64,000 bases of DNA from Acinetobacter sp. NCu2D-2 (GTDB lineage Bacteria; Pseudomonadota; Gammaproteobacteria; Pseudomonadales; Moraxellaceae): positions 620,001 to 684,000 of the forward strand of contig NZ_CP015594.1 of assembly GCF_001647675.1 (NCBI RefSeq), given 5' to 3'. The position numbers and the translations under genes are program-made. This document shows positions 2,599 to 23,983 of this stretch, one piece after another (the first letter of the stretch is position 1; each line of letters starts with the position of its first letter). The notes below the pieces were generated by a model that saw nothing but the letters and a program-made list of their open reading frames with translations, did not search any database and was not told the DNA's origin.

Positions 2599-2613
2599 TT
2601 AATATGTTAACTA
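2599..2613. promoter_or_regulatory. HpaR-type operator before the EntS-like MFS gene
   Basis: TTAATATGTTAACTA contains the exact 12-mer TTAATATGTTAA (2599-2610), identical to one of the two palindromes in the hpaA/hpaG1 intergenic region. It sits directly upstream of the leftward MFS start at 2580, where a bound repressor would block transcription or the start of elongation. Confidence 0.65.
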
Positions 2614-2770
2614 TTTTACTGGTTTTTTCGCATTTTGTGTTTTTTAGATACAGAATTATGATCAATAATCTCTATTGATATGTAGAAAGGTATATCTATA
2701 AATTAGTTTATTATATTAATTAGGATTCACTTTAATTTTAACTGGTAAAAATAGATAAAATGAGATAACT

Positions 2771-2794
2771 TTTTAGTTAATATATTAACTAAAA
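2771..2794. promoter_or_regulatory. 24-bp perfect palindromic operator (HpaR-type)
   Basis: The core TTAGTTAATATATTAACTAA (2773-2792) is a perfect palindrome, and two more matching bases on each side make it 24 bp. It shares TTAATATATTAA with sites at 5740 and 19732. It lies 15 bases before the ATG of the 238-aa gene at 2810 and shares the divergent intergenic region with the MFS operator at 2599. A MarR-family dimer is the expected binder (inference). Confidence 0.75.
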
Positions 2795-2809
2795 TAAAGG
2801 TGGATCAAA

Positions 2810-3526
2810 ATGGGGCACGCCAAACATTTTAGTCTGTATGTATCGAACTCGGATTTATTGACGCTCAATAAAACCAAAACAAGTACTATGGTCTATACAG
2901 ACATTCAAATGATCAATGAAATTATCTTAAATTTGATTGCATCGAAACGAGATTTTAGCAATTTTAAAAACTATTTTGAACAATTAGGTTTTAAATTAAA
3001 TCAATTTATTCATCAATTTAAATTAGAGATTAAATGTGCAGGTACGCTTAAGTTTGAGTTGCTAAAATTACTGTCTAAACTCAAAGTTATTCAGCATTAT
3101 ACGGGTGATCATTGGGTGGAAAGTATTGCAACTAGCCTTACTAAATCCATATATCAAAACATTCCTCAAATGACTTTAGTAGATTTACTTATATTTGAGA
3201 CCTACCATTCTCTAGGTTTAACATCGCAGTTAAGTGGTCAAGATAAACTTCTGGTGAAAAAAGTTAAAAATCTTGATTTATATAGTGAACTTTTAGCATG
3301 TTATAAAAAACCGCAAATCACTCAAAAAAATATTGAACAATATTTTGAAAAGAATCGAACCGAATTATTAATGAATTTGGTCGCTTCAGAGAAGAAGATC
3401 GTTCATATTCATTATGATATGGATTATTTAGAATCTTATGTGTGCAATAAAATGATGCTGGATTTACTGGGTGAAAATATCGATGAGCAACTCAATTTAA
3501 GAATAGAAAAAGAACTTTTAAGTTAA
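2810..3526 (+). CDS. Unrecognised 238-aa cytoplasmic protein under a perfect HpaR-type operator
   Basis: I do not recognise this family. The product is 238 aa, rich in Leu, Ile, Lys and Asn, with no signal peptide, membrane segment or known catalytic motif visible; it appears mostly helical. An excellent ribosome site (AAAGGTGG) precedes the ATG. Base composition is more AT-rich than in the hpa operon. It is a single-gene unit: divergent from the EntS-like exporter, convergent with the Bcr/CflA exporter, with an inverted repeat after the stop. The operator 15 bases upstream suggests induction with the 4-hydroxyphenylacetate genes. A regulatory or stress role is possible, but no function is assigned. 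Confidence 0.75.
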   Translation: MGHAKHFSLYVSNSDLLTLNKTKTSTMVYTDIQMINEIILNLIASKRDFSNFKNYFEQLGFKLNQFIHQFKLEIKCAGTLKFELLKLLSKLKVIQHYTGDHWVESIATSLTKSIYQNIPQMTLVDLLIFETYHSLGLTSQLSGQDKLLVKKVKNLDLYSELLACYKKPQITQKNIEQYFEKNRTELLMNLVASEKKIVHIHYDMDYLESYVCNKMMLDLLGENIDEQLNLRIEKELLS

Positions 3527-3530
3527 TACA

Positions 3531-3566
3531 CAGGCATTCTCCATTCAAATTATAGGAGAATACCTG
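3531..3566. terminator. Stem-loop between convergent genes
   Basis: CAGGCATTCTCC pairs with GGAGAATACCTG with one mismatch, in the 50-base gap between two convergent genes. There is no strong T-run, so it may be a weak bidirectional terminator or an mRNA-stabilising hairpin. Confidence 0.5.
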
Positions 3567-3576
3567 AGCTTTATGT

Positions 3577-4764
3577 TTAGGAAATTTCCTTCATCCCGCG
3601 TGTCAGTAATAAACTGCTCAAACATAAAATTGCGCCAGCACAAATGACAAAATTCATCGGTGCAGGGTGATTGTTTACGAAGAACAGACTCACCACATAA
3701 CTCAGTACTGCACCCATGGCGAACTGCATCGACACGGATAATCCTGATGCTGTACCTGCTTGTTGTGGTAAAAGCTTAAGAAGATTGGCCATTGAGTTTG
3801 CCCCAATTGAACCTGTTACGCCTACAAAGATGGCTAATCCAGCAATTAAGTACCAAGGCGATTCAAGTTTAAATAGGGTGATAAGGGCTAAATATATACC
3901 TGCACTGCAAGAAATCATCGCCATGGCTTTTAACAGTTGATATGCCCCATAACGCTTGAGCAAGCGGCTATTGATTGCTGTGAAGATGATGATGGAGAAA
4001 ATATTTCCAGCAAATAGATAAGCGTATTGCTGCGCAGTAAAGCCGTAGTAATGAATAAACACAAAAGATGATGCGGTAATATAGGCAAACATTGCTCCAA
4101 AAGAGAAGCTATTCGACAGCATAAAACCCCAAGCAAAACGGTTGCTGAGGACGGCTTTATAGTTTTGTAAAATGCCAGTCGGAGCATGGTTGGGTTTGGG
4201 TGCTTGGATGGTAATTTTTGACCAAGCTAGGCACAGGAGTGAATAAGCCAATAGGAAAATGAAAATTCCGCTCCAATGTGCATATTCAACGATCAATGCA
4301 CCGAGCAATGGTGCAATCAAGGTCGCAATCATGGTGATGATATGCATTAAGGATAATATTTTGGGAATTTCATGATTCTCAAACAGGTCACGGACCAATG
4401 CGCGAGAAAGTACCGATGCGCTGGCTCCACCCAAAGCTTGTAGTAAGCGGAAAACCTGTAGCTGTTCAATTTGAGTTGCCAAGATACAACCTAAGGTGGC
4501 TAAGACATAAATCACAATCCCAATCATCAGTAGGCGTTTACGGCCATAACGATCCGAGAGTGGGCCATAAACCAACATTCCAATACTAAAGCCCAGTAAG
4601 AAGATGGTAATAGTTTTTTGTACTGCAGCCACATGCGTATTTAAATCCAGCGCAATCGAAGGCAGACTTGGTAAATACATATCAATTGACAGTGGTCCAA
4701 AGGCCACTAACGCACTAAGTAGAATAATTAAGCTTTTAGAGCGCGTTTGAGTTGTTGTGACCAT
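3577..4764 (-). CDS. Bcr/CflA-type MFS drug exporter
   Basis: Protein of 395 aa with twelve predicted membrane segments. The N-terminal LGALxxFGPLSIDMYLPSLP-like segment (here LSALVAFGPLSIDMYLPSLP) is diagnostic of the Bcr/CflA subfamily of DHA1 multidrug exporters, and the loop YGPLSDRYGRKRLL is the MFS motif A. The gene starts 3 bases after the hpaA stop codon, so the two are probably cotranscribed and translationally coupled. That placement suggests export of an aromatic or toxic intermediate during 4-hydroxyphenylacetate growth; the substrate is not predictable. Confidence 0.85.
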   Translation of the reverse strand: MVTTTQTRSKSLIILLSALVAFGPLSIDMYLPSLPSIALDLNTHVAAVQKTITIFLLGFSIGMLVYGPLSDRYGRKRLLMIGIVIYVLATLGCILATQIEQLQVFRLLQALGGASASVLSRALVRDLFENHEIPKILSLMHIITMIATLIAPLLGALIVEYAHWSGIFIFLLAYSLLCLAWSKITIQAPKPNHAPTGILQNYKAVLSNRFAWGFMLSNSFSFGAMFAYITASSFVFIHYYGFTAQQYAYLFAGNIFSIIIFTAINSRLLKRYGAYQLLKAMAMISCSAGIYLALITLFKLESPWYLIAGLAIFVGVTGSIGANSMANLLKLLPQQAGTASGLSVSMQFAMGAVLSYVVSLFFVNNHPAPMNFVICAGAILCLSSLLLTRGMKEIS

Positions 4765-4767
4765 GGA

Positions 4768-5658
4768 TTAGGCTCTTGCTGTATTGAGTTGTTGATTACG
4801 ATAGTCAGATGGGCGCATGCCTGCATGACGGGTAAAGAATCGACTGAAATAAGCAGGATCTTTAAAGCCAAGTTGGTAACAGACCGAGTTAATTGAAGCG
4901 TCAGAGAAAATTAGCAAGCGTTTGGCTTCTTGCATTTGACGGTCAAAAATGAGTTTCTTGGATGAAATATTGGCAACACGACGACAAATATCATTTAAAC
5001 GGGTTTCGGTAATCGCAAGCTCTTGTGCATATTGATTCAGAGGCCAATGCTCTAGGAAATGATTTTCAATCAATTCATTAAATGAACGGAAAATTTTTAA
5101 ATCACCGCTACAGCTATTGATCCGTGGTGCAGTGACATCTCCCAAACGAATCATTTGAATAAAAATTAGAGAAACAAGGTTCTTGAGTGCGGCATTACGA
5201 CTGACTTTGTTACTTTGGAACTCATTTTCAATATCTTCAAAATAACGTTCCAGTTGTTTGAGGTCGTCATAGTAGTTGTGTTTCAGTCCTTCTAGGGAAA
5301 TACACAGCGGCACAATATTCTGAACTTTTAGATCGACCTGTAATAAAGGCCAAATTAAATTGGATTGTACGGTCAGGACATGGCCTTCACATAAAGGGTC
5401 AGTAATAAAAGCATGTGCGACAGAGGGCGGGGTCAGGAAACAAACGGGTGCTTTGCACACATACTTCACATCATCCAAATAAATTCGAATAGAGCCTTTC
5501 GTGACAAAGTGCAATTGGAAGAAACCATCGTGTCGATGGGCAGGCATATTTACACCGAAAAAATCAGCCAATTTACCTAAGGCTTCATAGTGAATTTCGG
5601 AGTCCATGTAGCGTTGATCGTAAACTTCACCAAGTTTGATATTTGGGATCTGATTCAT
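4768..5658 (-). CDS. hpaA: AraC-family activator HpaA
   Basis: Protein of 296 aa with an N-terminal cupin sensor domain (HRHDGFFQLHFVTKGSIRIYLDD) and a C-terminal double helix-turn-helix (about residues 190-290: LAITETRLNDICRRV and INSVCYQLGFKDPAYFSRFFTRHAGMRPSDYR). The size and layout match HpaA, which in E. coli senses 4-hydroxyphenylacetate and activates the hydroxylase genes. It is divergent from hpaG1, with two palindromic operators in between. Candidate binding sites for it are the 21-bp-spaced direct repeats at 13516 and 17263, upstream of the transporter and hydroxylase units; that link is inferred. Confidence 0.88.
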   Translation of the reverse strand: MNQIPNIKLGEVYDQRYMDSEIHYEALGKLADFFGVNMPAHRHDGFFQLHFVTKGSIRIYLDDVKYVCKAPVCFLTPPSVAHAFITDPLCEGHVLTVQSNLIWPLLQVDLKVQNIVPLCISLEGLKHNYYDDLKQLERYFEDIENEFQSNKVSRNAALKNLVSLIFIQMIRLGDVTAPRINSCSGDLKIFRSFNELIENHFLEHWPLNQYAQELAITETRLNDICRRVANISSKKLIFDRQMQEAKRLLIFSDASINSVCYQLGFKDPAYFSRFFTRHAGMRPSDYRNQQLNTARA

Positions 5659-5717
5659 ACCTTCGAGTCCATGAAAAGTATAATTTTCAACTTTAATCGA
5701 AAAAAAGACTTGAAAAA

Positions 5718-5753
5718 AGTTAATATGTTAATTATAAAGTTAATATATTAACT
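5718..5753. promoter_or_regulatory. Double HpaR-type operator in the hpaA-hpaG1 intergenic region
   Basis: Two palindromes lie side by side: AGTTAATATGTTAATT (5718-5733) and AGTTAATATATTAACT (5738-5753, perfect). Their centres are 20 bp apart, about two helical turns, which would place two dimers on the same face. They lie 55-90 bases before the hpaG1 start and 60-95 before hpaA, so they could control both directions. The motif recurs at 2599, 2777 and 19732. Confidence 0.8.
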
Positions 5754-5807
5754 AATTATCAAAAAGTCTAGTCCTAAGCGACAAGATATAGAAGCAGAGA
5801 GTCTCAA

Positions 5808-6467
5808 ATGAGTGAGTTAAAACCAATCAGCACGGATGGTAATGTTTTTGGTATCGCTTTGAATTACAAGTGTTTGTATGAAAAATTACAAGCATCTTTC
5901 AATGAAAAGCCTTACGTGAACGAACCTAAAAAACCAGTTTTGTTCATTAAAACACCAAACACCCGTAATGTTTCAGGTCGTCCAGTTGTTAAGAAAAAAT
6001 CTGAAATTTTGCAAGCGGGTCCAAGTGTTGGCATCGTGATCGGGAAAAGTACTACTCGTGTGAGTAAAAGTGAAGCTGCTGCTCATATCGCTGGCTATGT
6101 GGTTGTAAATGAATGGAGCCTTCCAGAGGAAAGTTATTACCGTCCAGCAATCAAAGCAAAATGCCAAGATGGCTTCTGTGTTGTAGGTACACCTGTTGCT
6201 CAGGATCAAGTGACTGATTTAAATAATCTTGCACTTCGTGTTTATGTAAATGGCGAATTGAAGCAAGAAGGTACGACTGCAAACTGGATTCGTACACCAG
6301 AACAGATTATTGAAGAAATTTCTGAATATATGCCGTTGAACGAAGGCGACATCATCTTAACAGGTACACCTTATGGTCGTGTTTCTGTAGTTGCGGGTGA
6401 TGAAGTTCGTGTTGAGATTGATCAACTCGGTTCAGTAACAAACACGGTTCAGGAAGAGGGTAACTAA
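5808..6467 (+). CDS. hpaG1: HpaG1: HpaG N-terminal-half homolog (FAH fold)
   Basis: This 219-aa fumarylacetoacetate-hydrolase-fold protein corresponds to the amino half of E. coli HpaG, the bifunctional decarboxylase/isomerase making 2-oxo-hept-ene-1,7-dioate from 5-oxo-pent-3-ene-1,2,5-tricarboxylate. Seen here: FGIALNY at the start, the LTGTPYG turn and the GDEVRVEI strand typical of the fold. The usual metal-binding Glu-x-Glu before VIGK is replaced (QAGPSVGIVIGK) and the Asp of the next ligand region reads NEW, so this half probably lacks a canonical metal site while hpaG2 keeps it. First gene of the meta operon; 3 bases separate it from hpaG2. Confidence 0.88.
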   Translation: MSELKPISTDGNVFGIALNYKCLYEKLQASFNEKPYVNEPKKPVLFIKTPNTRNVSGRPVVKKKSEILQAGPSVGIVIGKSTTRVSKSEAAAHIAGYVVVNEWSLPEESYYRPAIKAKCQDGFCVVGTPVAQDQVTDLNNLALRVYVNGELKQEGTTANWIRTPEQIIEEISEYMPLNEGDIILTGTPYGRVSVVAGDEVRVEIDQLGSVTNTVQEEGN

Positions 6468-6470
6468 TAA

Positions 6471-7232
6471 ATGAAAACTGCACGCATTCGTTATAACAAT
6501 GAAGTTTTAGAAGTTCAGGTAAATGATGAACTTCAAGTAACCCTTCCATCTGGTGAAGTTTTGGAAGAACAGGCAGTTGAATGGTTACCACCTGCTAACG
6601 GCACAATGTTCGCCTTAGGTTTGAACTATGCAGATCACGCACGTGAACTTGCTTTTGAACCACCAAAAGAACCATTGATTTTTATTAAAGCGTCAAATAC
6701 CTACACAGGCCATAACAAAAATACATGGCGTCCAGACAATGTTGAATACATGCACTATGAGTGTGAACTTGTCGCAGTGATTGGTAAAGAAGCGAAAAAC
6801 GTGAAACGTGAAGACGCGCTTGATTATGTTGCGGGTTATACCCTATGTAATGACTACGCGATTCGTGATTTCTTGGAAAACTACTATCGTCCAAACCTAC
6901 GTGTGAAAAACCGTCACTCTACAACACCTGTAGGTCCATACATCATCGACAAATCATTAGTGCCTTCACCAAATAACCTCACACTTCGTACATGGGTGAA
7001 CGGTGAGCTTCGTCAAGAAGGGACTACAGCAGACATGATCTTCAATGTTCCATTCTTAATTGAATACATCTCTTCATTCATGACATTGCAACCAGGCGAC
7101 ATGATCGCGACAGGTACACCAGAAGGTTTATCTGATGTGGTGCCTGGTGATGAAGTTGTGGTTGAAATTGAAGGCGTGGGAAAATTACGTAACTTCATTG
7201 TTTCAGAATCAGATTTTTTCAAAACAGTTTAA
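6471..7232 (+). CDS. hpaG2: HpaG2: HpaG C-terminal-half homolog (isomerase/decarboxylase)
   Basis: This 253-aa FAH-family protein corresponds to the carboxy half of E. coli HpaG, which decarboxylates and isomerises the tricarboxylate intermediate. The metal ligands are visible: the acidic pair in YECELVAVIGK and the Asp in CNDYAIRDF. GDMIATGTPEGLSDVVPGDEV is the conserved C-terminal loop. An N-terminal extension of about 45 residues precedes the FALGLNYADH start of the catalytic fold. In Acinetobacter and pseudomonads the two halves are often separate genes and likely work together. Cotranscribed with hpaG1 and hpaE. Confidence 0.92.
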   Translation: MKTARIRYNNEVLEVQVNDELQVTLPSGEVLEEQAVEWLPPANGTMFALGLNYADHARELAFEPPKEPLIFIKASNTYTGHNKNTWRPDNVEYMHYECELVAVIGKEAKNVKREDALDYVAGYTLCNDYAIRDFLENYYRPNLRVKNRHSTTPVGPYIIDKSLVPSPNNLTLRTWVNGELRQEGTTADMIFNVPFLIEYISSFMTLQPGDMIATGTPEGLSDVVPGDEVVVEIEGVGKLRNFIVSESDFFKTV

Positions 7233-7242
7233 GCGTTAAAGG

Positions 7243-8712
7243 ATGAACAAAATGATTAAGCATTGGATTGATGGTAAAGAAGTAGAAAGTAAAGAAACGT
7301 TTACAAACTATAACCCTGCGACAAATGAAGCGATTGGTGAAGTTGCTAGCGGTGGTCAAGAAGAAATTAATTTGGCAGTTGCTGCTGCAAAACGTGCGGC
7401 ACCAGGTTGGGCAAAAACACCTGCGAAAGAACGTGCGCGTTTAATGCGTAATTTGGGCGACTTGATTGACCAAAACGTAGCGAAAATTGCTGAACTTGAA
7501 ACTTTAGATACAGGTTTACCAATTCATCAAACCAAGAATGTATTGATTCCACGTGCATCGCACAACTTCAACTTCTTCGCTGAAGTATGTACACGTCTAA
7601 ATGGTCATACTTATCCAGTCGATGACCAAATGTTGAACTACACACTACACCAACCAGTAGGTGTATGTGGTTTGGTTTCTCCTTGGAACGTACCGTTTAT
7701 GACGGCAACTTGGAAAACTGCACCATGTTTAGCATTGGGTAATACTGCTGTATTGAAAATGTCTGAACTCTCTCCTTTAACTGCAAATGAACTCGGTCGT
7801 TTGGCTTTAGAAGCGGGTATTCCTGAAGGCGTATTCAACGTTGTTCAAGGTTATGGCGCAACTGCTGGTGATGCACTTGTAAAACACCCTGACGTACGTG
7901 CAATTTCGTTCACAGGTGGTACAGCGACAGGTCGTCGTATCATGGCGAATGCCGGTCTTAAAAAATACTCAATGGAATTAGGTGGTAAATCACCAGTTCT
8001 TATTTTTGAAGATGCTGACCTAGAACGTGCATTAGATGCTGCATTGTTCACGATCTTCTCATTGAATGGCGAGCGTTGTACTGCAGGTAGTCGTATCTTC
8101 ATTCAAGAATCTGTATATGACGAATTCGTAAAAGAATTTGCGCGCCGTGCGAAAAACATCAATGTTGGTGATCCACAAGATCCAAATACACAAGTGGGTT
8201 CAATGATCACCAAGGCGCATTACGACAAAGTAACGGGCTATATCAAGATTGGTATCGAAGAAGGTGCAAACTTGGTAGCAGGTGGTTTAGAGCGTCCGGC
8301 TGGTCTTGCAGATCACTTGAAAAATGGTCAATTCGTTCAGCCAACTGTGTTTGCTGACGTAGACAACCGTATGCGTATCGCACAAGAAGAAATCTTTGGC
8401 CCAGTGGTATGTTTGATCAAGTTCAAAGATGAAGCTGAAGCGCTTCGTTTGGCAAATGACACTGAATACGGTCTTGCATCTTACATCTGGACACAAGATA
8501 TTGGTAAAGCGCATCGTTTAGCGGCGGGCATCGAAGCAGGTATGGTGTTCATTAACAGCCAAAACGTACGTGACTTACGTCAACCATTCGGTGGTGTAAA
8601 AGGTTCTGGTACAGGTCGTGAAGGCGGTGAGTACAGCTTAGAGGTATTCACAGAGCTTAAGAACGTGTGTATCTCAATGGGTTCACATCACATTCCAAAG
8701 TGGGGCGCGTAA
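7243..8712 (+). CDS. hpaE: 5-carboxymethyl-2-hydroxymuconate semialdehyde dehydrogenase
   Basis: NAD-dependent aldehyde dehydrogenase (489 aa) oxidising the ring-cleavage product of homoprotocatechuate. The catalytic Cys is in FSLNGERCTAGSR and the general-base Glu in MELGGKSPV; FTGGTATGR is the cofactor-binding loop, and IPKWGA closes it much like E. coli HpaE (488 aa). Start choice: the TAAAGGA ribosome site overlaps the first ATG (7243) but is well spaced for the ATG at 7252 (MIKHWIDGK), so translation may really start there. Highly biased codon use (CGT, GGT, GAA) suggests strong expression. Confidence 0.95.
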   Translation: MNKMIKHWIDGKEVESKETFTNYNPATNEAIGEVASGGQEEINLAVAAAKRAAPGWAKTPAKERARLMRNLGDLIDQNVAKIAELETLDTGLPIHQTKNVLIPRASHNFNFFAEVCTRLNGHTYPVDDQMLNYTLHQPVGVCGLVSPWNVPFMTATWKTAPCLALGNTAVLKMSELSPLTANELGRLALEAGIPEGVFNVVQGYGATAGDALVKHPDVRAISFTGGTATGRRIMANAGLKKYSMELGGKSPVLIFEDADLERALDAALFTIFSLNGERCTAGSRIFIQESVYDEFVKEFARRAKNINVGDPQDPNTQVGSMITKAHYDKVTGYIKIGIEEGANLVAGGLERPAGLADHLKNGQFVQPTVFADVDNRMRIAQEEIFGPVVCLIKFKDEAEALRLANDTEYGLASYIWTQDIGKAHRLAAGIEAGMVFINSQNVRDLRQPFGGVKGSGTGREGGEYSLEVFTELKNVCISMGSHHIPKWGA

Positions 8713-8757
8713 GCGTCCTTCGGGAAGTATGGTCTAACACTATTTCAGGAAGAAAAA

Positions 8758-9606
8758 ATGGGTAAGCTCGCTTTAGCTGCAAAAATCACACATGTACCTT
8801 CAATGTACTTGTCAGAACTTCCAGGTCCTCAAAATGGCTGCCGCCAAGCTGCAATTGATGGTCATATTGAAATTGGTCGTCGTTGTCGTGAACTCGGTGT
8901 AGATACCATTGTTGTGCTAGATAGTCACTGGCTCGTGAACAGTGCCTTCCACATTAACTGTGGCGCACACTTTGAAGGTGTATATACCAGTAATGAATTG
9001 CCGCACTTCATTAAAGATATGGAATTCGATTACGACGGTAACCCTGAATTTGGTCAATTGATGCAAGAAGAAATTGCCAAAACAGGTATTCGTGTACAAG
9101 CGCATAACATCGAAAGCTTACATCTTGAATACGGTACGCTCGTTCCAATGCGTTACATGAACCAAGACAAGAAATTTAAAGTGGTTTCTGTGTCTGCATT
9201 CTTAACATCGCATGAGCTTCAAGACAGCCGTAAATTTGGTGAAGGTTTACGCGCAGCGATCGAAAAATATGAAGGTACGGTAGCAGTTTTTGCGAGCGGC
9301 TCTTTATCTCATCGTTTCATTTGGGATCGTGAAGCAAGCCGTGGTATGGATTCATATACACGTGAGTGGGATCGTCAAGTCGACAAGCACGTTGTCGGTA
9401 TGTGGGAGCGCGGTGAGTGGAAAGAATTTACCGACATGCTTCCTGAATATGCGGAATACTGCTTCGGTGAAGGTGGTATGCATGATACAGCAATGCTTCT
9501 TGGTCTACTCGGCTGGGATCAATACGACAAACCTGTTGAAATCTTAACACCTGCATTCCCAAGTTCGGGTACAGGTCAGATTAACGCCGTTTTCCCAGTT
9601 GAATAA
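8758..9606 (+). CDS. hpaD: Homoprotocatechuate 2,3-dioxygenase (class III extradiol)
   Basis: Opens the ring of 3,4-dihydroxyphenylacetate between C2 and C3 to give 5-carboxymethyl-2-hydroxymuconate semialdehyde. At 282 aa it matches E. coli HpaD (283 aa) of the LigB superfamily, not the vicinal-oxygen-chelate HPCD type. Seen: KITHVPSMYLSE with an N-terminal His and VLDSHWLVNSAFHINC with further His residues of the Fe(II) site, plus the acidic EGGMHDTAMLLGLLGW region. The start follows AGGAAGAAAAA and fits the family. Lies between hpaE and hpaF, with 45 bases before it. Confidence 0.95.
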   Translation: MGKLALAAKITHVPSMYLSELPGPQNGCRQAAIDGHIEIGRRCRELGVDTIVVLDSHWLVNSAFHINCGAHFEGVYTSNELPHFIKDMEFDYDGNPEFGQLMQEEIAKTGIRVQAHNIESLHLEYGTLVPMRYMNQDKKFKVVSVSAFLTSHELQDSRKFGEGLRAAIEKYEGTVAVFASGSLSHRFIWDREASRGMDSYTREWDRQVDKHVVGMWERGEWKEFTDMLPEYAEYCFGEGGMHDTAMLLGLLGWDQYDKPVEILTPAFPSSGTGQINAVFPVE

Positions 9607-9622
9607 TTTAGGAATCTAGACT

Positions 9623-10012
9623 ATGCCTCACTTTATTGCTGAATATAGCGCAAACATTAAAGATGACATCGATTTTCCTGAATTCTTTGGGGAAGTGAAT
9701 CAATTCTTAGGCAACACAGGTGTGTTTCCATTGGGTGGTATCCGTAGCCGTGCAATTCGTATGGATGACTACGTGATTGCGGATGCTAAGCATGATTATG
9801 CCTTTATCCATATGACATTAAAGGTAGGGGCAGGTCGAGATTTAGAAATCCGGAAAGGGGTGGCTGAGGAGCTATTCAAGCTGATTGAAGCTCATTTCCA
9901 ACCGCTTAAAGATAGACGTTTATTGGCCATTTCTTTTGAAATGATTGAACTTGATCCAGTGTTGAACTTTAAGTCTAACAACATTCATCAATTTCTTAAT
10001 GCTCAGAAATAA
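9623..10012 (+). CDS. hpaF: 5-carboxymethyl-2-hydroxymuconate isomerase
   Basis: Tautomerase-superfamily enzyme of 129 aa (E. coli HpaF about 126) that isomerises 5-carboxymethyl-2-hydroxymuconate to its oxo form, the substrate of HpaG. The protein begins [12 protein letters not shown]; Pro2, exposed after Met removal, is the catalytic base in the family. Follows hpaD after 16 bases and precedes hpaH by 14, so it is an internal operon gene. Confidence 0.94.
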
Positions 10013-10026
10013 GAACGGATTCGATC

Positions 10027-10830
10027 ATGCTTGACCAAGAAAAAATTAAAGCGCTTGCGCTAGAACTCGACAAAGCAGAAAAAACACGTACGCAAATGCG
10101 TCAATTCTCTTTGCAATATCCTGAAATTACCATTGAAGATGCATACGCAATTCAAAAAGAATGGGTTGCACACAAAATTGCTGAAGGCCGTAAGTTGGTG
10201 GGTCATAAAATTGGCTTAACCTCACGTGCAATGCAAGTCTCTTCAAACATCACAGAGCCTGACTACGGTGCTTTGCTCGATGATATGGTTTTCGAAGAAG
10301 GTTCAGATATTCCATTTGATCGTTTCATCGTTCCACGTGTTGAAGTTGAACTTGCGTTCATCTTAGGTAAAGACTTAACCGGTCCAAACTGCACAATTTT
10401 TGATGTATTAGATGCAACGGATTACATTATTCCTGCCATCGAAATCATTGATGCGCGTTTACACAACACAGACCCTGAAACAGGGATTACCCGTAAAGTA
10501 TTCGACACCATTTCTGACAATGCTGCCAATGCAGGTATTGTGTTAGGTGGTCGTCCAATTAAACCGCACGAGCTTGATTTACGCCGTATTCCTGCAATCT
10601 TGTACCGTAACGGAGTGATTGAAGAATCAGGTGTTTCAGCTGCGGTATTGAATAACCCTGTGAAAGGTGTGGCTTGGCTTGCAAATAAACTCCACCCACA
10701 CGGTGTAACACTTAAAGCAGGTCAAATTATTCTTGGTGGTTCGTTCACACGTCCAGTGGCTGCACGTCCAGGCGATACATTCCATGTTGATTATGATCAA
10801 CTGGGTTCAATCGCATTCCGTTTCGTTTAA
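10027..10830 (+). CDS. hpaH: 2-oxo-hept-4-ene-1,7-dioate hydratase
   Basis: Protein of 267 aa, the same length as E. coli HpaH. It adds water to 2-oxo-hept-4-ene-1,7-dioate, giving 4-hydroxy-2-oxo-heptane-1,7-dioate for HpaI. Family marks seen: [12 protein letters not shown], the metal-binding [15 protein letters not shown] with spaced acidic residues, [10 protein letters not shown], and [21 protein letters not shown] near the end. It is related to MhpD-type hydratases, but the operon position fixes the substrate. 10 bases separate it from hpaI. Confidence 0.95.
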
Positions 10831-10840
10831 GGGGTAGGTC

Positions 10841-11644
10841 GTGTTAGATACAACCAACTATTTCAAGAAAAAGCTTAAAGAAACTCAGCAAATTGGCATG
10901 TGGCTTGGTATGGCAGATGGCTATACGGCTGAAATTGCAGCAAATGCGGGTTTCGATTGGTTATTGATTGACGGTGAACATGCACCGAACGATTTGAAAT
11001 CGATTCTTTACCAATTACAAACTATTGCAGCTTACCCATCGCAAGCTGTAGTTCGTCCTGTCACAGGTGATGTTGGCTTAATCAAACAGCTTTTGGATAT
11101 TGGTGCGCAAACACTACTCATTCCAATGGTTGAATCTGCTGAGCAAGCAGAATTGATGGTCAGTGCAACACGTTACCCACCTGAAGGCATTCGTGGTGTC
11201 GGTGCTGCTCTAGCACGTGCATCTCGTTGGAACAATATTTCAACATACCTAAATGATGCTGATGAACAAATCTGTGTCATTGTACAAATCGAATCGAAAA
11301 AAGGCTTAGAAAACCTTGATGCGATCTTACAAGTTGAAGGCATTGATGGCGTCTTTATTGGCCCAGCAGATTTATCAGCAGCTTTAGGTCATCGTGGTAA
11401 TCCAGGTCACCCAAATGTACAGGAAATTATTGTTGCGAGCATCAATAAAATCCGTGCAGCAGGCAAAGCCGCAGGTATATTATCTGCAGACGAAAAACTT
11501 GCGAAGCAATACTTGGCAATGGGTACAGAGTTTGTCGCAGTTGGTGTAGACACAAGTCTTTTGATGAAATCAATGAACCAATTGCTGTCAAAATTTAAAG
11601 ATGGTGTTGCGGCTCCAGTCAGCACAACGCCAAGCGTCTATTAA
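10841..11644 (+). CDS. hpaI: 4-hydroxy-2-oxo-heptane-1,7-dioate aldolase
   Basis: Class II, metal-dependent pyruvate aldolase of 267 aa cleaving the last intermediate to pyruvate and succinic semialdehyde. His47 (IDGEHAPND) and Arg72 (VVRPVTG) line up with the catalytic His45 and Arg70 known from E. coli HpaI; the metal ligands are the Glu of VQIESKKG and the Asp of [13 protein letters not shown]. The start is GTG with a GGGGTAGG ribosome site 10 bases after the hpaH stop. The product feeds the aldehyde dehydrogenase directly downstream. Confidence 0.95.
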
Positions 11645-11655
11645 GGAGAATATAG

Positions 11656-13104: not shown

Positions 13105-13122
13105 TAGATTAACTATTGAAAA

Positions 13123-16147: not shown

Positions 16148-16170
16148 CCACTGACAATAACGTGAAACGC

Positions 16171-16560
16171 TTAGTCTTCTTTGGCTTTGCCAATCTTTGA
16201 AACGTGCTCGGTATACTTTTTTCCAAGATCAGTCCCACATTCTTTATCAATGTGATAAATCACATCCTGAATAAATTCAGTTTTAAGCTTTTCTGCGGCT
16301 AACTGCTTTTCTAATTGGCGGATTCGTTGTTGGGGTGTCAATTGGCGTTTAGAAGAAGTCGGCATATTCGAAGTCCAGTCCTGTTGTCCGTGCTTGCGTA
16401 ACCATACCAGCACAGTTGATCTTCCTTGAATACCATATTTTGCCTGAGCTTGCTTATAAGTAATTTGCCCTTTTTCTACTTCATGTACCACCATCATTTT
16501 AAAGGCAAAGCTATAGTCACGTTGTGTACGTTTAACTCGTTGTTCTCGTTTATGTTCCAT
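16171..16560 (-). CDS. IS3-family transposase OrfA (129 aa)
   Basis: Helix-turn-helix protein with KRTQRDYSFAFKMMVVHEVEKGQITYKQAQAKYGIQGRSTVLVWLRKHG (HTH region, about residues 10-58) and a downstream coiled region QRIRQLEKQLAAEKLKTEFIQ. It is longer than the OrfA of the other IS3 type in this window, so the two are different elements. Confidence 0.92.
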   Translation of the reverse strand: MEHKREQRVKRTQRDYSFAFKMMVVHEVEKGQITYKQAQAKYGIQGRSTVLVWLRKHGQQDWTSNMPTSSKRQLTPQQRIRQLEKQLAAEKLKTEFIQDVIYHIDKECGTDLGKKYTEHVSKIGKAKED

Positions 16561-16614
16561 AAAATAAGTCTCTTAAGGTGTAAACTTATTTCAGGACGGG
16601 ACATATATCTGATT

Positions 16615-17322: not shown

Positions 17323-17414
17323 AGTGCCTAACAACACATTCATATGGTGTTTAGCGCATTTTAAGACGTTGACCGCCATGTACATTTGAATTGGAACATC
17401 AAGGAAGTAGGCAT

Positions 17415-18680
17415 ATGGAAAATACCACTGCATTTAACTCTGATTCTCATACAGCTTATAACGCAGCTGAAGATTATGAGGGATATAAAGTGACTTACAC
17501 TGAAGCTAAGCCTGTAGCGAATGAATCACTTTTAGAAAAAATTAAAGCAGTTCTTCCACAAATTGCTGCCAATGCAGAAGCGGCTGAACAGCTTCGCCGT
17601 GTGCCTGATGAAAACATCAAATTATTAAAAGATATTGGTTTACACCGCGCTTTCCAACCTAAGGTGTATGGCGGTTTAGAAATCAGCCTTCCTGAATTTG
17701 CAGATTGTATCGTAACGATTGCAGGTGCATGTGCAGGGACTGCATGGGCATTCAGCTTGCTTTGTACACATAGTCATCAAATTGCAATGTTCCCTAAACA
17801 ACTACAGGATGAAATTTGGTTAGCCAACCCAGATGCAACGGCAAGTAGTTCAATTGCGCCATTTGGTAAAGTTGAAGAAGTTGAAGGTGGTGTTAAGCTT
17901 TCTGGCGACTACGGTTGGAGTAGTGGTTGTGACCATGCAGAATATGCAATCGTTGGTTTTAACCGCTTCGATGCCGAAGGTAACAAAATCTATAGCTTCG
18001 GTGTTATTCCACGTTCAGACTATGAAATCGTAGATAACTGGTTTGCTGGCGCAATTAAGAGCAGTGGTTCTAAACAACTTAAAATCCGTGATTTATTCAT
18101 TCCTGAATATCGTATCCAAAAAGCGAAAGATATGATGGAAGGTAAATCAGCTGGTTTCGGTTTATATCCAGACAGTAAGATTTTCTATTCTCCATACCGT
18201 CCTTACTTCGCAAGTGGTTTCTCTGCAGTAAGTCTTGGTGTTGCTGAACGTATGCTTGAAGCATTCAAATTAAAGCAAAAAACACGTATTCGTGCATACA
18301 CAGGTGCAAATCTTGGTGCGTCAACACCAGCACTTATGCGTTTAGCTGAGTCTACACATCAAGTGGCAGCAGCACGTGCCTTCCTAGAAAAAACTTGGGA
18401 AGACCACCGTATTCATGGTGAGCAAAAACGCTACCCAACTCAAGAAACATTGGCATTCTGGCGTACTAACCAAGCCTATGCAGTAAAAATGTGTATTGAA
18501 GCGGTTGACCGTTTATTCGCAGCAGCGGGTGCAACAAGCTGGTTGGATGGTCAGGAAATGCAACGTCTGTTCCGTGACTCACACATGACAGGTGCTCACG
18601 CTTATACAGATTACGATGTATGTGCACAAATTTTAGGTCGTGAATTGATGGGCTTAGACCCAGATCCAACAATGGTTTAA
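17415..18680 (+). CDS. C2-hpah: p-Hydroxyphenylacetate 3-hydroxylase, oxygenase component C2
   Basis: Class-D (acyl-CoA-dehydrogenase fold) flavin monooxygenase, 421 aa, matching the C2 component described from A. baumannii; it uses reduced flavin from C1 and oxygen to convert 4-hydroxyphenylacetate to 3,4-dihydroxyphenylacetate. His119 (CTHSHQ), Ser145 (TASSSIAPFG) and Ser170 (GWSSGCDHAEY) appear to match the flavin/substrate residues reported for that enzyme, with a one-residue numbering offset (from memory). Start: AAGGAAGTAGG precedes the ATG at 17415; an in-frame TTG at 17391 has no ribosome site. 18 bases before the reductase gene. It is unrelated to E. coli HpaB. Confidence 0.94.
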   Translation: MENTTAFNSDSHTAYNAAEDYEGYKVTYTEAKPVANESLLEKIKAVLPQIAANAEAAEQLRRVPDENIKLLKDIGLHRAFQPKVYGGLEISLPEFADCIVTIAGACAGTAWAFSLLCTHSHQIAMFPKQLQDEIWLANPDATASSSIAPFGKVEEVEGGVKLSGDYGWSSGCDHAEYAIVGFNRFDAEGNKIYSFGVIPRSDYEIVDNWFAGAIKSSGSKQLKIRDLFIPEYRIQKAKDMMEGKSAGFGLYPDSKIFYSPYRPYFASGFSAVSLGVAERMLEAFKLKQKTRIRAYTGANLGASTPALMRLAESTHQVAAARAFLEKTWEDHRIHGEQKRYPTQETLAFWRTNQAYAVKMCIEAVDRLFAAAGATSWLDGQEMQRLFRDSHMTGAHAYTDYDVCAQILGRELMGLDPDPTMV

Positions 18681-19637
<957 letters not shown>

Positions 19638-19657
19638 TTCGTTTTAGATCAATCTTA

Positions 19658-19687
19658 AAAAAAAACCGCTTCGGCGGTTTTTTTATA
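19658..19687 (+). terminator. Rho-independent terminator after the hydroxylase genes
   Basis: AAACCGCTTCGGCGGTTT hairpin with a TTCG-type loop, A-run before and T-run after, 20 bases past the C1 stop codon. Confidence 0.93.
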
Positions 19688-19731
19688 CCTATTATTCAAT
19701 AATAAAACATTTGCATATAGGATAATTTTGT

Positions 19732-19743
19732 TTAATATATTAA
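19732..19743. promoter_or_regulatory. HpaR-type operator before the KstD-like gene
   Basis: Exact TTAATATATTAA, extended to TTTAATATATTAATTAA, 52 bases upstream of the ATG at 19796. Same 12-mer as the perfect operators at 2777 and 5740, which links this module to the 4-hydroxyphenylacetate regulon (inference). Confidence 0.65.
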
Positions 19744-19795
19744 TTAATGTTTAAAACGACATTCAAGAATACATAGAGGTTTTCTGGAGAGAATA

Positions 19796-21544
19796 ATGGA
19801 ATCACAATTCAACGTTGATGTACTGGTTGTTGGCTCAGGTGCATCAGGTATGGCAACTGCTATTACAGCAAAGCTTTTAGGCTTAAATGTACTTGTCATT
19901 GAAAAGTCTAAAAATTATGGTGGCACAACCGCGCGTTCAGGTGGTTGGTTATGGGTACCCGGTACAAAACTTGCGAAAGCATATGGACATGAAGATTCTC
20001 CAGAAGCCGTCAAAGCATATTTAAAACATGAAGGTGGGGATGCTTATAACGAGGAACGTGTTGATTCTTTTGTTAATCATTGTTCCGATGCGATTGATTT
20101 TTTCACTAAAAATACTGCTGTCCAATTTGATATGCCTTTAACATTCCCCGACTATCATGCAGAAGCACCAGGTGCAATGCAGGGCGGACGTTCGATGGTG
20201 ACACGTCCTTTTGATGCGCGTGAACTTGGTGATCGTTTGGCATTGCTTGAACCGCCACTACCTGAATTGACTGTATTTGGTATGATGATTGGTTCGGGTG
20301 CAGATTTGCGTCACTTTATGAAAGCAACCCGTTCATTAGAATCGGCGTTATATACAGTGAAACGTTTCGGTACACACTTTGCTGAATGTTTAAAATACGG
20401 CCGTGGCATGTTGCTGACCAATGGTAATGCTTTGGCAGGTCGCTTAGCAAAATCTGCGCTAGATTTAGATATTCCTGTGTTAGTCGACACTGCCGCGAAA
20501 GAGCTCATACTTGCAAATGGCAAAGTGGTGGGTCTTAAAGCTGTTTCAGCAGGTCAAGAGATTAAAATTAATGCTTCACGTGCAGTAGTACTTGCTGCAG
20601 GTGGTTTCCCTCACAATACTGAATTACGTAAACGTCTATATAGCCATAGCGTAACAGGTTTAGACCATTGGTCTCCAACGACTGAAACCAATACAGGTGA
20701 CAGTATTGCAATGGTTGAAAAAGTGAATGTTAAAGTTGATACACACTTAGAAAACAATGCTGCATGGGCACCTATTTCTCTGGTAAAACGTAAGGACGGT
20801 ACTCATGGTGTGATGCCACACTTTATTGATCGTGCGAAACCGGGTGTGATTGCGGTTAATAAAAAGGGTAAACGTTTCGTCAATGAAGCAAACTCATATC
20901 ATGACTTTGTTCAAGGAATGATTAAAGGTGCCAATATTGATGGCGAAATTACCTCTTGGCTCATCTGCGATCGTAAAACCTTACGTATGTATGGTCTAGG
21001 TTCTGTTCCACCACAACCACTGCCAATTGGAAAATATCTTAAATCAGGTTACCTCAAACAAGGGCGTAGTATTGCTGAACTGGCAAAAAACTGTGGGATA
21101 GATCCTCAAGGGCTAGAGGAAACTATTAATAAGTTCAATCCATTGGCAAAAATCGGTCAAGATCCTGAGTTCGGTAAAGGTTCTAAAGCCTATAACCGTT
21201 ATCAAGGTGACCCGCTACACATGCCAAATCCATGCTTAAAACCAATTGAGCAAGGGCCTTTCTATGCTGTTCAATTACGTCCGGGTGACATCGGGACATA
21301 TGCAGGTTTACCAGTCGATCGTCATAGCCGTGTACTAGATGCAACTGGTCAAATTGTTCAAGGTTTGTACTCGGTAGGTAATGATGCCACAAGCATTATG
21401 GGTGGGAATTATCCAGGTGCAGGTATTACTTTAGGACCTGCTTTGGTATTCGGTTATCAGACTGGCTTATTCATTGCCAAAGGTAAAGACAATAATCCAA
21501 TTAAAGAGCGTACTGTCGAAAACCAAGAAGCAGTCGCGGTCTAA
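19796..21544 (+). CDS. FAD-dependent oxidoreductase, 3-ketosteroid Δ1-dehydrogenase-like
   Basis: Protein of 582 aa in the fumarate reductase/KstD flavoprotein superfamily. The FAD-binding N terminus is DVLVVGSGASGMATAITAKLLG with the acidic end at VIEKS; GGTTARSGGWLWVPG follows; RAVVLAAGGFPHN and, near the C terminus, GLYSVGNDATSIMGGNYPGAGITLGPALVFGYQTG close the FAD site. The superfamily covers ketosteroid dehydrogenases, fumarate reductases and several flavin enzymes on small acids, so the substrate is open. It lies just upstream of an SDR gene and carries an HpaR-type operator, suggesting oxidation of an aromatic or alicyclic acid that feeds the hpa pathway. Confidence 0.8.
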   Translation: MESQFNVDVLVVGSGASGMATAITAKLLGLNVLVIEKSKNYGGTTARSGGWLWVPGTKLAKAYGHEDSPEAVKAYLKHEGGDAYNEERVDSFVNHCSDAIDFFTKNTAVQFDMPLTFPDYHAEAPGAMQGGRSMVTRPFDARELGDRLALLEPPLPELTVFGMMIGSGADLRHFMKATRSLESALYTVKRFGTHFAECLKYGRGMLLTNGNALAGRLAKSALDLDIPVLVDTAAKELILANGKVVGLKAVSAGQEIKINASRAVVLAAGGFPHNTELRKRLYSHSVTGLDHWSPTTETNTGDSIAMVEKVNVKVDTHLENNAAWAPISLVKRKDGTHGVMPHFIDRAKPGVIAVNKKGKRFVNEANSYHDFVQGMIKGANIDGEITSWLICDRKTLRMYGLGSVPPQPLPIGKYLKSGYLKQGRSIAELAKNCGIDPQGLEETINKFNPLAKIGQDPEFGKGSKAYNRYQGDPLHMPNPCLKPIEQGPFYAVQLRPGDIGTYAGLPVDRHSRVLDATGQIVQGLYSVGNDATSIMGGNYPGAGITLGPALVFGYQTGLFIAKGKDNNPIKERTVENQEAVAV

Positions 21545-21640
21545 GTTTTTAGTGTTTTATTCCCATCACATGAATTTCTCGTGGTGGGAATCCTTTCTTA
21601 AATTTCGTTTTTGACTCATATTTTGAACAGGAAGTTTTAA

Positions 21641-22393
21641 ATGTTTGTGCTTTATAATAAAAAAATTGTGGTAACAGGTGCTGCGCAGGGTAATGGTGAA
21701 GCGATTGCCAAAGGTTTATCTCAGCTTGGTGCAACGGTCATTTTGGCAGATTTAAATCTGGAAAAATTAGAACAGGTTAAACAGGATATTGTTGCTACAG
21801 GTCGTGAAGCTTATGCATTCGCCTTAAATGTAGCTGATTTAGAAAATTGCCAGCAGTTTGCACAGCAAGTTCAGCAGACCTTGGGTGATATTGATGTCTT
21901 GGTTAATAATGCGGGAATTTTACGTCGAAGTAATATTGAATCTGAATCAACATTTAAAGACCTTGATGACACTTTAAATATCAATCTAAAAGGGAGTTAT
22001 AACCTGACACATTCTTTCCTCGAATCCTTAAAAAAGACGCAAGGTAATATTGTCAATGTTGCATCGATTCAGTCATTTGTCGCAGCAACGAGTGCAACAA
22101 CCTATGCAATTTCAAAGGGCGCAGTTGCACAGATGACGAAAACTTTAGCTGCAGAATTGGCAAAATATGGTATCCGCGTCAATGCCATTGCTCCAGGTGT
22201 TATTGAAACCCCGATGACTGAGTTTACCCGTTCCAATCAGGGCATGATCGAGGGTTATTTACGTCATGTTCCAATGAATCGTACAGGGCAGCCGACTGAG
22301 CTTGTAGGGCCAGTATCTTTTCTCTGCTCCAATGCCGCAAGTTATGTAACAGGCTGTATACTACCTGTAGATGGCGGTTATTTAACTGTCTAA
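21641..22393 (+). CDS. Short-chain dehydrogenase/reductase (SDR)
   Basis: Classical SDR of 250 aa. NAD(P)-binding VVTGAAQGNGEAIAKGLSQLGA with DLN after β2 (suggesting NAD preference), NNAG motif in VLVNNAGILRR, catalytic Ser in VASIQSF and YxxxK in TYAISKGAVAQ; the C-terminal GCILPVDGGYLTV is typical of FabG-like members. 96 bases after the flavoprotein gene and followed by two IclR regulators. Probable partner of the KstD-like enzyme in an unidentified pathway. Confidence 0.85.
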   Translation: MFVLYNKKIVVTGAAQGNGEAIAKGLSQLGATVILADLNLEKLEQVKQDIVATGREAYAFALNVADLENCQQFAQQVQQTLGDIDVLVNNAGILRRSNIESESTFKDLDDTLNINLKGSYNLTHSFLESLKKTQGNIVNVASIQSFVAATSATTYAISKGAVAQMTKTLAAELAKYGIRVNAIAPGVIETPMTEFTRSNQGMIEGYLRHVPMNRTGQPTELVGPVSFLCSNAASYVTGCILPVDGGYLTV

Positions 22394-22426
22394 TCGGAGA
22401 ATATAAATACAGGTGCAGAGGGAACA

Positions 22427-23167
22427 ATGACCAATCATCAGCGCGGCATCCAAACCGTTGAATTGGCCGGTGACATTTTAAAATTGGTCTGTGGTTCTAA
22501 GAGAGCTTTATCCTTAAGTGAAATTGCAGAAACCTTGGAGATGTCTCCAGGTTCTGCCTATAAGTACTTAATTAGCCTTTTAAGAACAGGGTTATTAAAA
22601 AGAAATGACAGTACTTTAGAGTACGAAGCGGGTCCTTTAAGTTTACGACTCGGACTTTCTAAAATTAAACATGACGACATGCTAGCCCATGCTCGTGATG
22701 CTTTGACGCATCTTGCAGAAAAATATCAACTTAATGCCTTTGCTTCTATGTGGTCCGACTTAAATGGGGCAACAGTTGTCTTTTATAAAGAATATGGTGG
22801 CTTCTTTAATTTAGGTTTTCGTTTGGGTATGCGTTTATCGCTGCTGAATACCACCACAGGTCGCTTATTTGCAGCGCATATGGATGCTGTTCAGTTAGCA
22901 GACAACCTTGATCAGGATATGATTAAGCCATTAGATTATATGAATGTGCTTCAAGAGATTCGAACTCAAGGCTACTCAACATTGTCTGATATTCCCACAC
23001 CAGGATTTACCAGCTATGCAGTGCCAGTGTTTGATTGTGATCAAAATATTGTAATGACTTTAACAGCGTTTGGACCTTCTGAACGATTTGTACAGGGCAA
23101 AATTCAGCCTGTACTTGATGAACTGAACCAAATTGCAGCGGAGCTTAAAGGACAAAACAATGGATGA
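22427..23167 (+). CDS. IclR-family regulator (first of a tandem pair)
   Basis: Protein of 246 aa. N-terminal winged helix: GIQTVELAGDILKLVCGSKRALSLSEIAETLEMSPGSAYKYLISLLRTGLLKR. The IclR effector domain follows (about residues 75-245), with FASMWSDLNGATVVFYKEYGG and the PGFTSYAVPVFDCDQNIVMTLTAFG core. 33 bases after the SDR; its 3' end overlaps the next regulator gene by 8 bases. A ligand-sensing regulator of the KstD/SDR module is the natural reading. Confidence 0.85.
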   Translation: MTNHQRGIQTVELAGDILKLVCGSKRALSLSEIAETLEMSPGSAYKYLISLLRTGLLKRNDSTLEYEAGPLSLRLGLSKIKHDDMLAHARDALTHLAEKYQLNAFASMWSDLNGATVVFYKEYGGFFNLGFRLGMRLSLLNTTTGRLFAAHMDAVQLADNLDQDMIKPLDYMNVLQEIRTQGYSTLSDIPTPGFTSYAVPVFDCDQNIVMTLTAFGPSERFVQGKIQPVLDELNQIAAELKGQNNG

Positions 23168-23930
23168 TCTTAGCCAACAACCAGGCATTCAAAGTATTGA
23201 CTATATTAGTGAAATATTAGAATTATTTTGTGATCGGCACGCCAAACTTAGCTTAAAAGAGATTGCTAGTGCTTTAAATGATAGTCCGGCTAAAGTATTT
23301 CGCTATTTGGTTAGCTTAACACGTATTGGATTGCTGCAAAAAACGGCCAACAATGAATATGTGGTAGGGGATCTTGCACTTGATCTTTCTTTTAAAGCTT
23401 TAAATCTACTCGACCCGATTGAACAAGCATGTCAAACCGCAAAAGCTATTAATCGTGAAAGCTCGTATGGGGTAGCGGTCAGTATTTGGGGATCTTTAGG
23501 ACCAACAGTAATAAAAACCTATGAACCCGTTGAAGGGATTTATTCTAAAATCCGTGCAGGTTCGGTGATGTCACTGATCAATAGTTCTATTGGTAATACT
23601 TTTGCACAGTTCTTACCTGAGCATATTCTTCGCGATGCACTTGAGTTAGATTACATTCGTCATTCAGGAGTTAAGCTCTCAGCCAAAGAGCGTAATGAGT
23701 TTATGACAGCTATGCAGTCACGTCGTGATCAAACTATAACGCTCATGGTCGATCGACCAAGTGCCGGTCTGAGTTCAATCAGTTTACCTGTGTTTGGTAT
23801 TTCGGATGAGATTCAGTTTGTGATTACGGCATTTCATAACAGTCATGTACTTTTGGCAGAGCAAGACCAATTTACTCAGTATTTAACTAATAAAATTGCT
23901 GAGCTATCGCGCAATATCGGCTTGAACTAA
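23160..23930 (+). CDS. IclR-family regulator (second of a tandem pair)
   Basis: Protein of 256 aa, similar in layout to its neighbour: winged helix GIQSIDYISEILELFCDRHAKLSLKEIASALNDSPAKVFRYLVSLTRIGLLQK and an IclR effector domain ending SLPVFGISDEIQFVITAFHN. Start chosen at 23160 because AAAGGACAAAACA gives a well-spaced ribosome site; a longer frame from 23133 exists but has none. The 8-base overlap with the previous gene implies translational coupling. The two probably arose by duplication and may form a heteromer; that is inference. Confidence 0.83.
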   Translation: MDDLSQQPGIQSIDYISEILELFCDRHAKLSLKEIASALNDSPAKVFRYLVSLTRIGLLQKTANNEYVVGDLALDLSFKALNLLDPIEQACQTAKAINRESSYGVAVSIWGSLGPTVIKTYEPVEGIYSKIRAGSVMSLINSSIGNTFAQFLPEHILRDALELDYIRHSGVKLSAKERNEFMTAMQSRRDQTITLMVDRPSAGLSSISLPVFGISDEIQFVITAFHNSHVLLAEQDQFTQYLTNKIAELSRNIGLN

Positions 23931-23971
23931 AGTATTAAAAAAATGTCTGAACAAGGATTGTACAGATATAA

Positions 23972-23983
23972 TTAACATGTTAA
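23972..23983. promoter_or_regulatory. Palindrome before the ACS-family transporter
   Basis: TTAACATGTTAA is a perfect 12-bp palindrome that differs from the TTAATATRTTAA operators by a compensated T/A to C/G change. It sits 83 bases before the likely start at 24067. It could be an HpaR-type site or a site for an IclR protein. Confidence 0.5.

Follow-up and report, generated by a model that had tools for sequence, protein, structure and literature searches.

Predicted HpaR operators point to an extended 4-hydroxyphenylacetate regulon in Acinetobacter sp. NCu2D-2

The MarR-family repressor HpaR of Escherichia coli represses the hpa meta operon of the 4-hydroxyphenylacetate (4-HPA) pathway and also hpaR itself (PMC7180172). 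HpaR of Yersinia pseudotuberculosis footprints two 15-bp sites with the pattern TTAA-N4-TTAA, described as 'similar to E. coli W' (PMC7180172), and the discussion of a 2025 Journal of Biological Chemistry article on A. baumannii places HpaR binding upstream of both hpaA and the meta operon (PMC12718150). In Pseudomonas putida U there is a second HpaR copy (hpaY), and hpa is coupled to the tyramine/dopamine pathway (PMC7180172, citing Arcos 2010). Here we describe six palindromic sites in 64,000 nucleotides of Acinetobacter sp. NCu2D-2 (NZ_CP015594.1, positions 620,001 to 684,000; hereafter the window, meaning this whole stretch), which carries an hpa cluster and two HpaR genes. From sequence comparisons, we consider these sites to be predicted operators of HpaR that mark a wider regulon, with a probability of roughly 0.88, and HpaR probably coordinates a programme that extends beyond the core 4-HPA pathway.

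The locus shares with the E. coli W and Y. pseudotuberculosis systems a MarR repressor of the hpa meta operon and a TTAA-N4-TTAA operator. The descriptions of those systems, in the portions of the sources used here, concern the hpa cluster (plus the type VI secretion system T6SS4 in Yersinia), whereas the putative operators found here also accompany exporter, porin, KstD-like desaturase, cytochrome P450 and amine-oxidase genes. Full-length homology links the window to A. baumannii HpaR, for which the sites reported lie upstream of hpaA and the meta operon. The second HpaR copy and the tyramine link recall the 3,4-dihydroxyphenylacetate (3,4-HPA) catabolon of P. putida U, but the account of HpaR and HpaY excerpted in PMC7180172 concerns the meta operon only and makes no mention of exporter, porin, KstD-like or P450 targets. 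Since two HpaR copies and a tyramine link have been reported there, the predicted exporter, porin, KstD-like and P450 targets are what would be new.

The preliminary description of this DNA placed six HpaR operators just upstream of genes, and all six were found: exact copies of TTAAYATRTTAA begin at 2599, 2777, 5720, 5740, 19732 and 23972, all of them intergenic, with the nearest start codons 18-81 bp away. As also proposed, the core-gene half is free of exact sites, none occurring past 24 kb of the window. Beyond the sites of the preliminary description, there is a one-mismatch copy at 937, and contig 2 of the genome has three exact ones. The predicted operators of the window, with one weak and one decayed site, are:

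937..948: weak operator TTAATATATTTA, one mismatch, 17 bp before HpaR1
2599..2610: operator, 18 bp before the EntS-like start
2771..2794: 24-bp perfect palindrome enclosing the operator at 2777-2788, 21 bp before an open reading frame (ORF) of 238 amino acids (aa)
5720..5731: operator O1, between the divergent hpaA and hpaG genes
5740..5751: operator O2, in the same region, a 16-bp perfect palindrome
19732..19743: operator 52 bp before the KstD-like gene, 3' of a terminator-like hairpin at ~19663-19686
23972..23983: operator TTAACATGTTAA, 56 bp before the HpaX-like MFS gene
27047..27061 (approximate place): decayed operator before HpaR2, TAGAATAACTTATATATAGATA in the window and TAGAATAGTTAATATATTAATA or near it in relatives

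The aligned counterpart of the 23972 site is TTAATATATTAA in three relatives, a paired change that leaves the palindrome intact. The hairpin at ~19663-19686 was recognised by eye in the window and in relatives, and is absent from the scanner's list.

One hundred dinucleotide shuffles of the window gave a mean of 0.09 copies of TTAAYATRTTAA (maximum 2) against the six observed. The whole genome (3.05 Mb) holds 13 exact copies, six in the window and three on contig 2; another lies outside the window, 304 bp upstream of an OprD-family porin gene, and three (C1:1289252, 1347665 and 2611173) have no clear catabolic target. At the first of these three (L008), the site stands ~155 bp before an MFS transporter with no known hpa context around it. 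The signal resides in the YATR spacer: we rejected the generic TTAA-N4-TTAA pattern as its source, this being present 253 times in the genome against 286 for the reversed control, with a slight rise within the window (10 vs 4.1). When TTAATATRTTAA is allowed up to two mismatches, 60 matches are obtained on both strands of the window against 31 expected, an enrichment that remains but is diluted, with matches scattered across the whole window.

The motif extends beyond the genus. A scan of named genomes yielded 29 loci with an HpaR relative, and the 12 hpa loci from outside Acinetobacter, several of which are near relatives and thus not independent, carry 23 exact sites against 0.021 expected under a first-order Markov model. 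For nearly all of these sites (21 of 23), a homologue from our gene panel starts no more than 300 bp away; these homologues include hpaG, hpaE, hpaA, hpaD and hpaR. The operator is conserved in hpa loci of Pseudomonas, Oceanobacter, Parathalassolituus and Neptunomonas, and hpa loci with 46-58% GC contain it. In E. coli, the 15-kb locus L150 has the exact 12-mer once, 31 bp before hpaG, and six HpaR loci judged to lack hpa genes, two of which have weak hpa-protein matches (34% and 38%), have no exact site.

Within Acinetobacter, we sampled 119 genomes, of which 15 have HpaR above cut-off and 10 have hpaG. The hpaG-bearing genomes average 9.3 sites (8.9 after removal of NCu2D-2 itself) against 1.65 in the other 109 (Mann-Whitney p = 7e-8). 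A search of 175 Acinetobacter genomes found HpaR in 20. Seven further genomes, chosen for carrying HpaR and including four whose HpaR regions were already in the named-genome scan, have 11, 9, 9, 4, 5, 8 and 8 sites, and six of these genomes have hpa genes in the regions examined; one of the seven, G143, was not part of the site mapping. Across 16 hpa-bearing genomes, 96 of 142 sites lie within 350 bp of a panel gene, a count that is partly circular because the panel was partly drawn from genes found beside sites in relatives, and that includes one row counted by hand (L014 16903, whose gene has its start at the opposite end of contig 2). When only window-defined genes, a 260-bp limit and genomes other than NCu2D-2 are used, the figure is 69 of 129 sites, and 28 of 49 for the six genomes added later. 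R...Y flanks are found at 75 of the 96 panel sites and 13 of the 46 others.

These comparisons bear on one alternative, that AT-rich promoter DNA produced these matches by chance. The flat genome-wide count of TTAA-N4-TTAA and the 60 two-mismatch matches in the window would be in keeping with it; the exact counts against both shuffles and Markov expectation, conservation at matching positions and presence at 46-58% GC are not, and we regard chance as highly improbable. The motif was not found to be equally common genome-wide, which the preliminary description had named as grounds for giving up its proposal, and the binding it predicted is supported by the Yersinia footprints, the E. coli hpaG site, conservation in other genera and enrichment in hpa-bearing Acinetobacter. 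The operator set is real and conserved, and would represent a switch of a familiar type whose predicted regulon is enlarged.

Several observations weigh against assigning the sites to HpaR. The reversed control is also higher in hpaG-bearing genomes (3.7 vs 2.0, p = 0.02), so base composition contributes, and 46 of the 142 sites have no panel neighbour. Five genomes carry HpaR but gave no hpaG hit; four of them hold 0-3 copies, and the fifth, G102, has six along with six control hits. Because of the four low counts, HpaR presence was dropped as a predictor of the motif in favour of hpa genes. G099 has seven sites without an HpaR hit. Two hpa loci, both of P. fuscovaginae, have no exact site, and HpaA is present alongside many hpa loci. 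A further target of Yersinia HpaR, at T6SS4, has a different and imperfect sequence (PMC7180172). As to the ligand, isothermal titration calorimetry showed no binding of 4-HPA or 3,4-HPA to purified Serratia HpaR (PMC10364317).

G061, with nine sites and no HpaR hit, was rejected as a counterexample: TTAATATATTAA recurs there with identical flanks at five places (loci L208, L211 and L213-L215), four of which fall within an ORF of 444 aa, and most of the excess can be put down to a repeated element that is probably mobile. In G012 (L083, L084), which has no hpaG hit, HpaR, a succinate-semialdehyde dehydrogenase 96% identical to that of the window and an operator before an OprD porin are present, as if left over from loss of an hpa cluster. 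G169 has strong extended palindromes, AGTTAATATATTAACT, at L190:8317, before a 404-aa ORF without a panel match, and at L191:2494, without a clear neighbour.

The genes around the sites, with scores against family models in bits, are:

966..1391, +: HpaR1, MarR-family HpaR (TIGR02337, 159; cut-off 121)
1378..2580, -: EntS-like MFS exporter, convergent with HpaR1
2810..3526, +: 238-aa orphan ORF
3577..4764, -: Bcr/CflA-type MFS transporter (NF008314, 312; cut-off 303)
4768..5658, -: HpaA, AraC-family activator (TIGR02297, 367; cut-off 275)
5808..13104, +: hpaG1-hpaG2-hpaE-hpaD-hpaF-hpaH-hpaI and a succinate-semialdehyde dehydrogenase gene (NCBIfam models above cut-off except for hpaF, 172; cut-off 215)
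13908..15284, +: shikimate-transporter-like MFS, metabolite/H+ symporter (TIGR00883, 405; cut-off 443)
17406..19637, +: oxygenase (C2) and reductase (C1) components of the 4-HPA 3-hydroxylase (both above cut-off, NF045920 and NF045919)
19796..21544, +: KstD/ChcC2-like FAD-dependent ring-ketone desaturase
21641..22393, +: SDR oxidoreductase
22427..23930, +: two tandem regulators, the first IclR-family, the second IclR-like by eye and without an NCBIfam match at 1e-15
24070..25419, +: HpaX-like MFS permease (best model a D-galactonate transporter, 302, cut-off 395; HpaX second, 275, cut-off 615)
25674..27020, +: OprD-family porin (PF03573, 350)
27075..27503, +: HpaR2, MarR-family HpaR (TIGR02337, 168; cut-off 121)

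Between the symporter and hydroxylase genes, a two-ORF IS3-like transposase was recognised by eye at 15338-16560. Orthologues of the symporter are preceded by an operator in several relatives; the window has no exact one at this gene.

Other regulators encoded here could in principle own the palindromes, either the activator HpaA or the paired IclR-like proteins, given that all three genes are in the window and that HpaA accompanies many of the loci with sites. Palindromic sites fit a MarR dimer, however, and the motif persists where no IclR-like relative was detected in the stretch examined, as well as in Neptunomonas L146, whose 20 kb yielded no HpaA. Yersinia lacks an HpaA homologue according to its authors, yet its HpaR footprints the pattern (PMC7180172). 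We therefore consider these regulators improbable owners of the sites and HpaR the better candidate.

Two proteins of the genome and no others score above the HpaR cut-off, namely HpaR1 and HpaR2; both are encoded in the window, and they resemble different relatives. HpaR1 and its EntS-like neighbour are 80% and 74% identical to their counterparts in G169, where only the HpaR1 type was found, while the matches to HpaR2 and to the KstD-like, HpaX-like and porin genes are in A. chengduensis, ANC 3813 and A. bouvetii. The tree places HpaR1 outside the HpaR2 group on a long branch. An exact site lies 4-19 bp upstream of the hpaR ORF in five relatives, and the operator upstream of hpaR in A. chengduensis, ANC 3813 and A. 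bouvetii is the one that has decayed before HpaR2 in the window. We read the window as a probable composite of two hpa-cluster lineages. HpaR2 is homologous over its full length to the solved HpaR structure 7el2, which, with 7el3, we take to be A. baumannii HpaR. Both proteins contain the stretch LKPSLTG (LRPSLTG in E. coli, with slight variation elsewhere), so both could bind the operators, and we infer that HpaR1 and HpaR2 may share them. At the left edge of the window, beside HpaR1, positions 1-760 contain an IS3-type transposase remnant, recognised by eye.

In the hpaA/hpaG region, O1 and O2 stand 61 and 81 bp from hpaA and 56 and 76 bp from hpaG, counting the nearer operator first in each case. 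Their 20-bp spacing is kept in all 10 aligned genomes, as is the O2 motif; O1 is exact in six and degenerate in four. A promoter scan of this region gave three promoter-like matches against 0.8 in shuffles, two of which use bases of the operator at 5740. At the other regions such scans were uninformative (2 vs 2.1, 0 vs 1.0 and 0 vs 1.1 in shuffles).

The preliminary description extended the regulon to the EntS-like exporter, the KstD-like module and the 238-aa orphan, and these fared differently. The exporter scores 80 bits with the EntS model (cut-off 324), which assigns it to MFS exporters by family only and not to EntS. Its orthologue adjoins hpaR in many relatives, with the operator 17-18 bp upstream in G084, G039, G088, G124 and G169. 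Of 15 relatives, 13 have an operator at the EntS-like gene, which together with the window makes 14 of 16 hpa-bearing genomes; the corresponding figure for hpaR is 7 of 15 relatives. A role for the exporter gene as a conserved target of the predicted operator is thus strongly supported.

The KstD-like module also finds support, from four relatives, as a putative member of the regulon. Its operator is exact in the window; three relatives have a one-mismatch version, TTAATATCTTAA, at the corresponding place, and in A. tianfuensis an exact copy precedes a decayed KstD remnant (35 aligned residues, 69%). Orthologues at 88% identity occur solely in hpa-bearing genomes (3 of 119, and A. bouvetii), and distant relatives at 45-50% occur elsewhere. 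The protein is below cut-off for all 25 of 36 models listed, among them the generic PRK06134 (740 bits, cut-off 747), ChcC2 (575, cut-off 900) and KstD (477, cut-off 789), the last of which leaves it outside the named KstD proteins. It shares with the ChcC2/KstD desaturases the FAD-dependent family and, in a hand count against 4c3x that assumes a 20-residue tag offset, identity at all four presumed catalytic positions, which we take to be Tyr119, Tyr318, Tyr487 and Gly491; it differs in that its gene adjoins hpa genes. The position of the KstD-like/SDR pair next to the 4-HPA hydroxylase suggests the hypothesis that the pair aromatises an oxocyclohexylacetate to 4-HPA. Cyclohexaneacetic acid has been reported as an oil-degradation product and 4-hydroxyphenylacetic acid is listed under alkylbenzenes, with no link drawn between them in the part of that source used here (PMC10837267).

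Neither Pfam nor NCBIfam gave a match for the 238-aa ORF, which has four unnamed database homologues besides itself (59-64% identity). No counterpart was found among the ORFs of the relatives' loci compared, and its candidate place in the regulon comes from an operator seen in this genome alone. A narrower regulon can accordingly be proposed, in which HpaR binds the hpaA/hpaG, EntS and permease sites and the copies at the KstD-like gene and the 238-aa ORF are non-functional. The missing counterpart of the ORF would agree with this, as would a KstD site that is exact only in the window and in A. tianfuensis, where the gene is decayed, and mismatched in three relatives. Because the KstD site holds its place in five of five aligned genomes and no other site of the set has as long a palindrome as that at 2777, we consider this narrower version unlikely, though far from negligible, and retain the wider regulon.

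Contig 2 carries three operators within 8.4 kb. One is flanked by a P450-reductase fusion gene at 52 bp and an IclR-like gene at 62 bp, and another lies ~80 bp before the apparent start, judged by eye, of an interrupted GMC-type gene that is followed by TnpB. The GMC gene appears interrupted in contig 2 (L014:12430-14483) and is intact in relatives, with plasmid matches falling in the IS200/IS605 part. The third is at the contig end; the first bases of contig 2 are the ATG start of a primary-amine oxidase gene (1343 bits against a cut-off of 1278), and this operator would stand 51 bp before the amine-oxidase gene if the contig is circular. In G019, G039, G044, G073 and G087 an operator precedes a GMC, MBL or aldehyde-dehydrogenase gene adjoining or heading amine-oxidase genes, and in all of these except G039 it is shared with a divergent EntS-like gene; in G051, G147, G160 and G169 an operator precedes related GMC or aldehyde-dehydrogenase genes. 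VanA-like Rieske genes, of which one protein was profile-scanned, adjoin operator-marked porins and permeases in relatives. Two broader patterns were rejected. An operator does not head every Rieske unit, being mostly between the Rieske genes and the porin or permease and heading a LuxR-type/Rieske unit only in G044 and G130; and none of the 28 sites in the KstD-bearing relatives G084, G088 and G124 is near a relative of the contig-2 P450, which sets aside a general pairing of KstD with an operator-marked P450.

In the proposed mechanism, an HpaR dimer would occupy TTAAYATRTTAA some 20-80 bp from the start codon and block transcription when the inducer is absent, and a compound of the 4-HPA pathway would release it, its identity being uncertain because of the Serratia binding result. 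In the window this would apply to the hpaA/hpaG promoters, with two operators 20 bp apart, the EntS-like exporter, the HpaX-like permease and a separate KstD-like/SDR unit, and outside it to the contig-2 cluster with the P450 and the primary-amine oxidase and to the OprD porin. One repressor family could thereby control central ring cleavage, transport and feeder reactions. A more speculative extension, which we think unlikely to hold as a whole, is a converging network with HpaR as master repressor, in which the KstD-like and SDR enzymes aromatise 4-oxo- or 4-hydroxycyclohexylacetate to 4-HPA, an amine-oxidase/aldehyde-dehydrogenase operon feeds in from tyramine, methoxylated analogues are demethylated by VanA-like enzymes (cluster-linked in relatives), toxic intermediates leave through the EntS-like exporter, and two HpaR lineages are kept on one operator set.

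Our findings offer a sequence-level definition of a predicted HpaR regulon that would span central ring cleavage as well as genes for export, uptake and feeder reactions. Membership of this regulon suggests a pathway for the KstD-like/SDR pair, the EntS-like exporter and the contig-2 P450. The window may also provide a natural case of two repressors of one family, derived from two lineages, of which one is now without its own operator.

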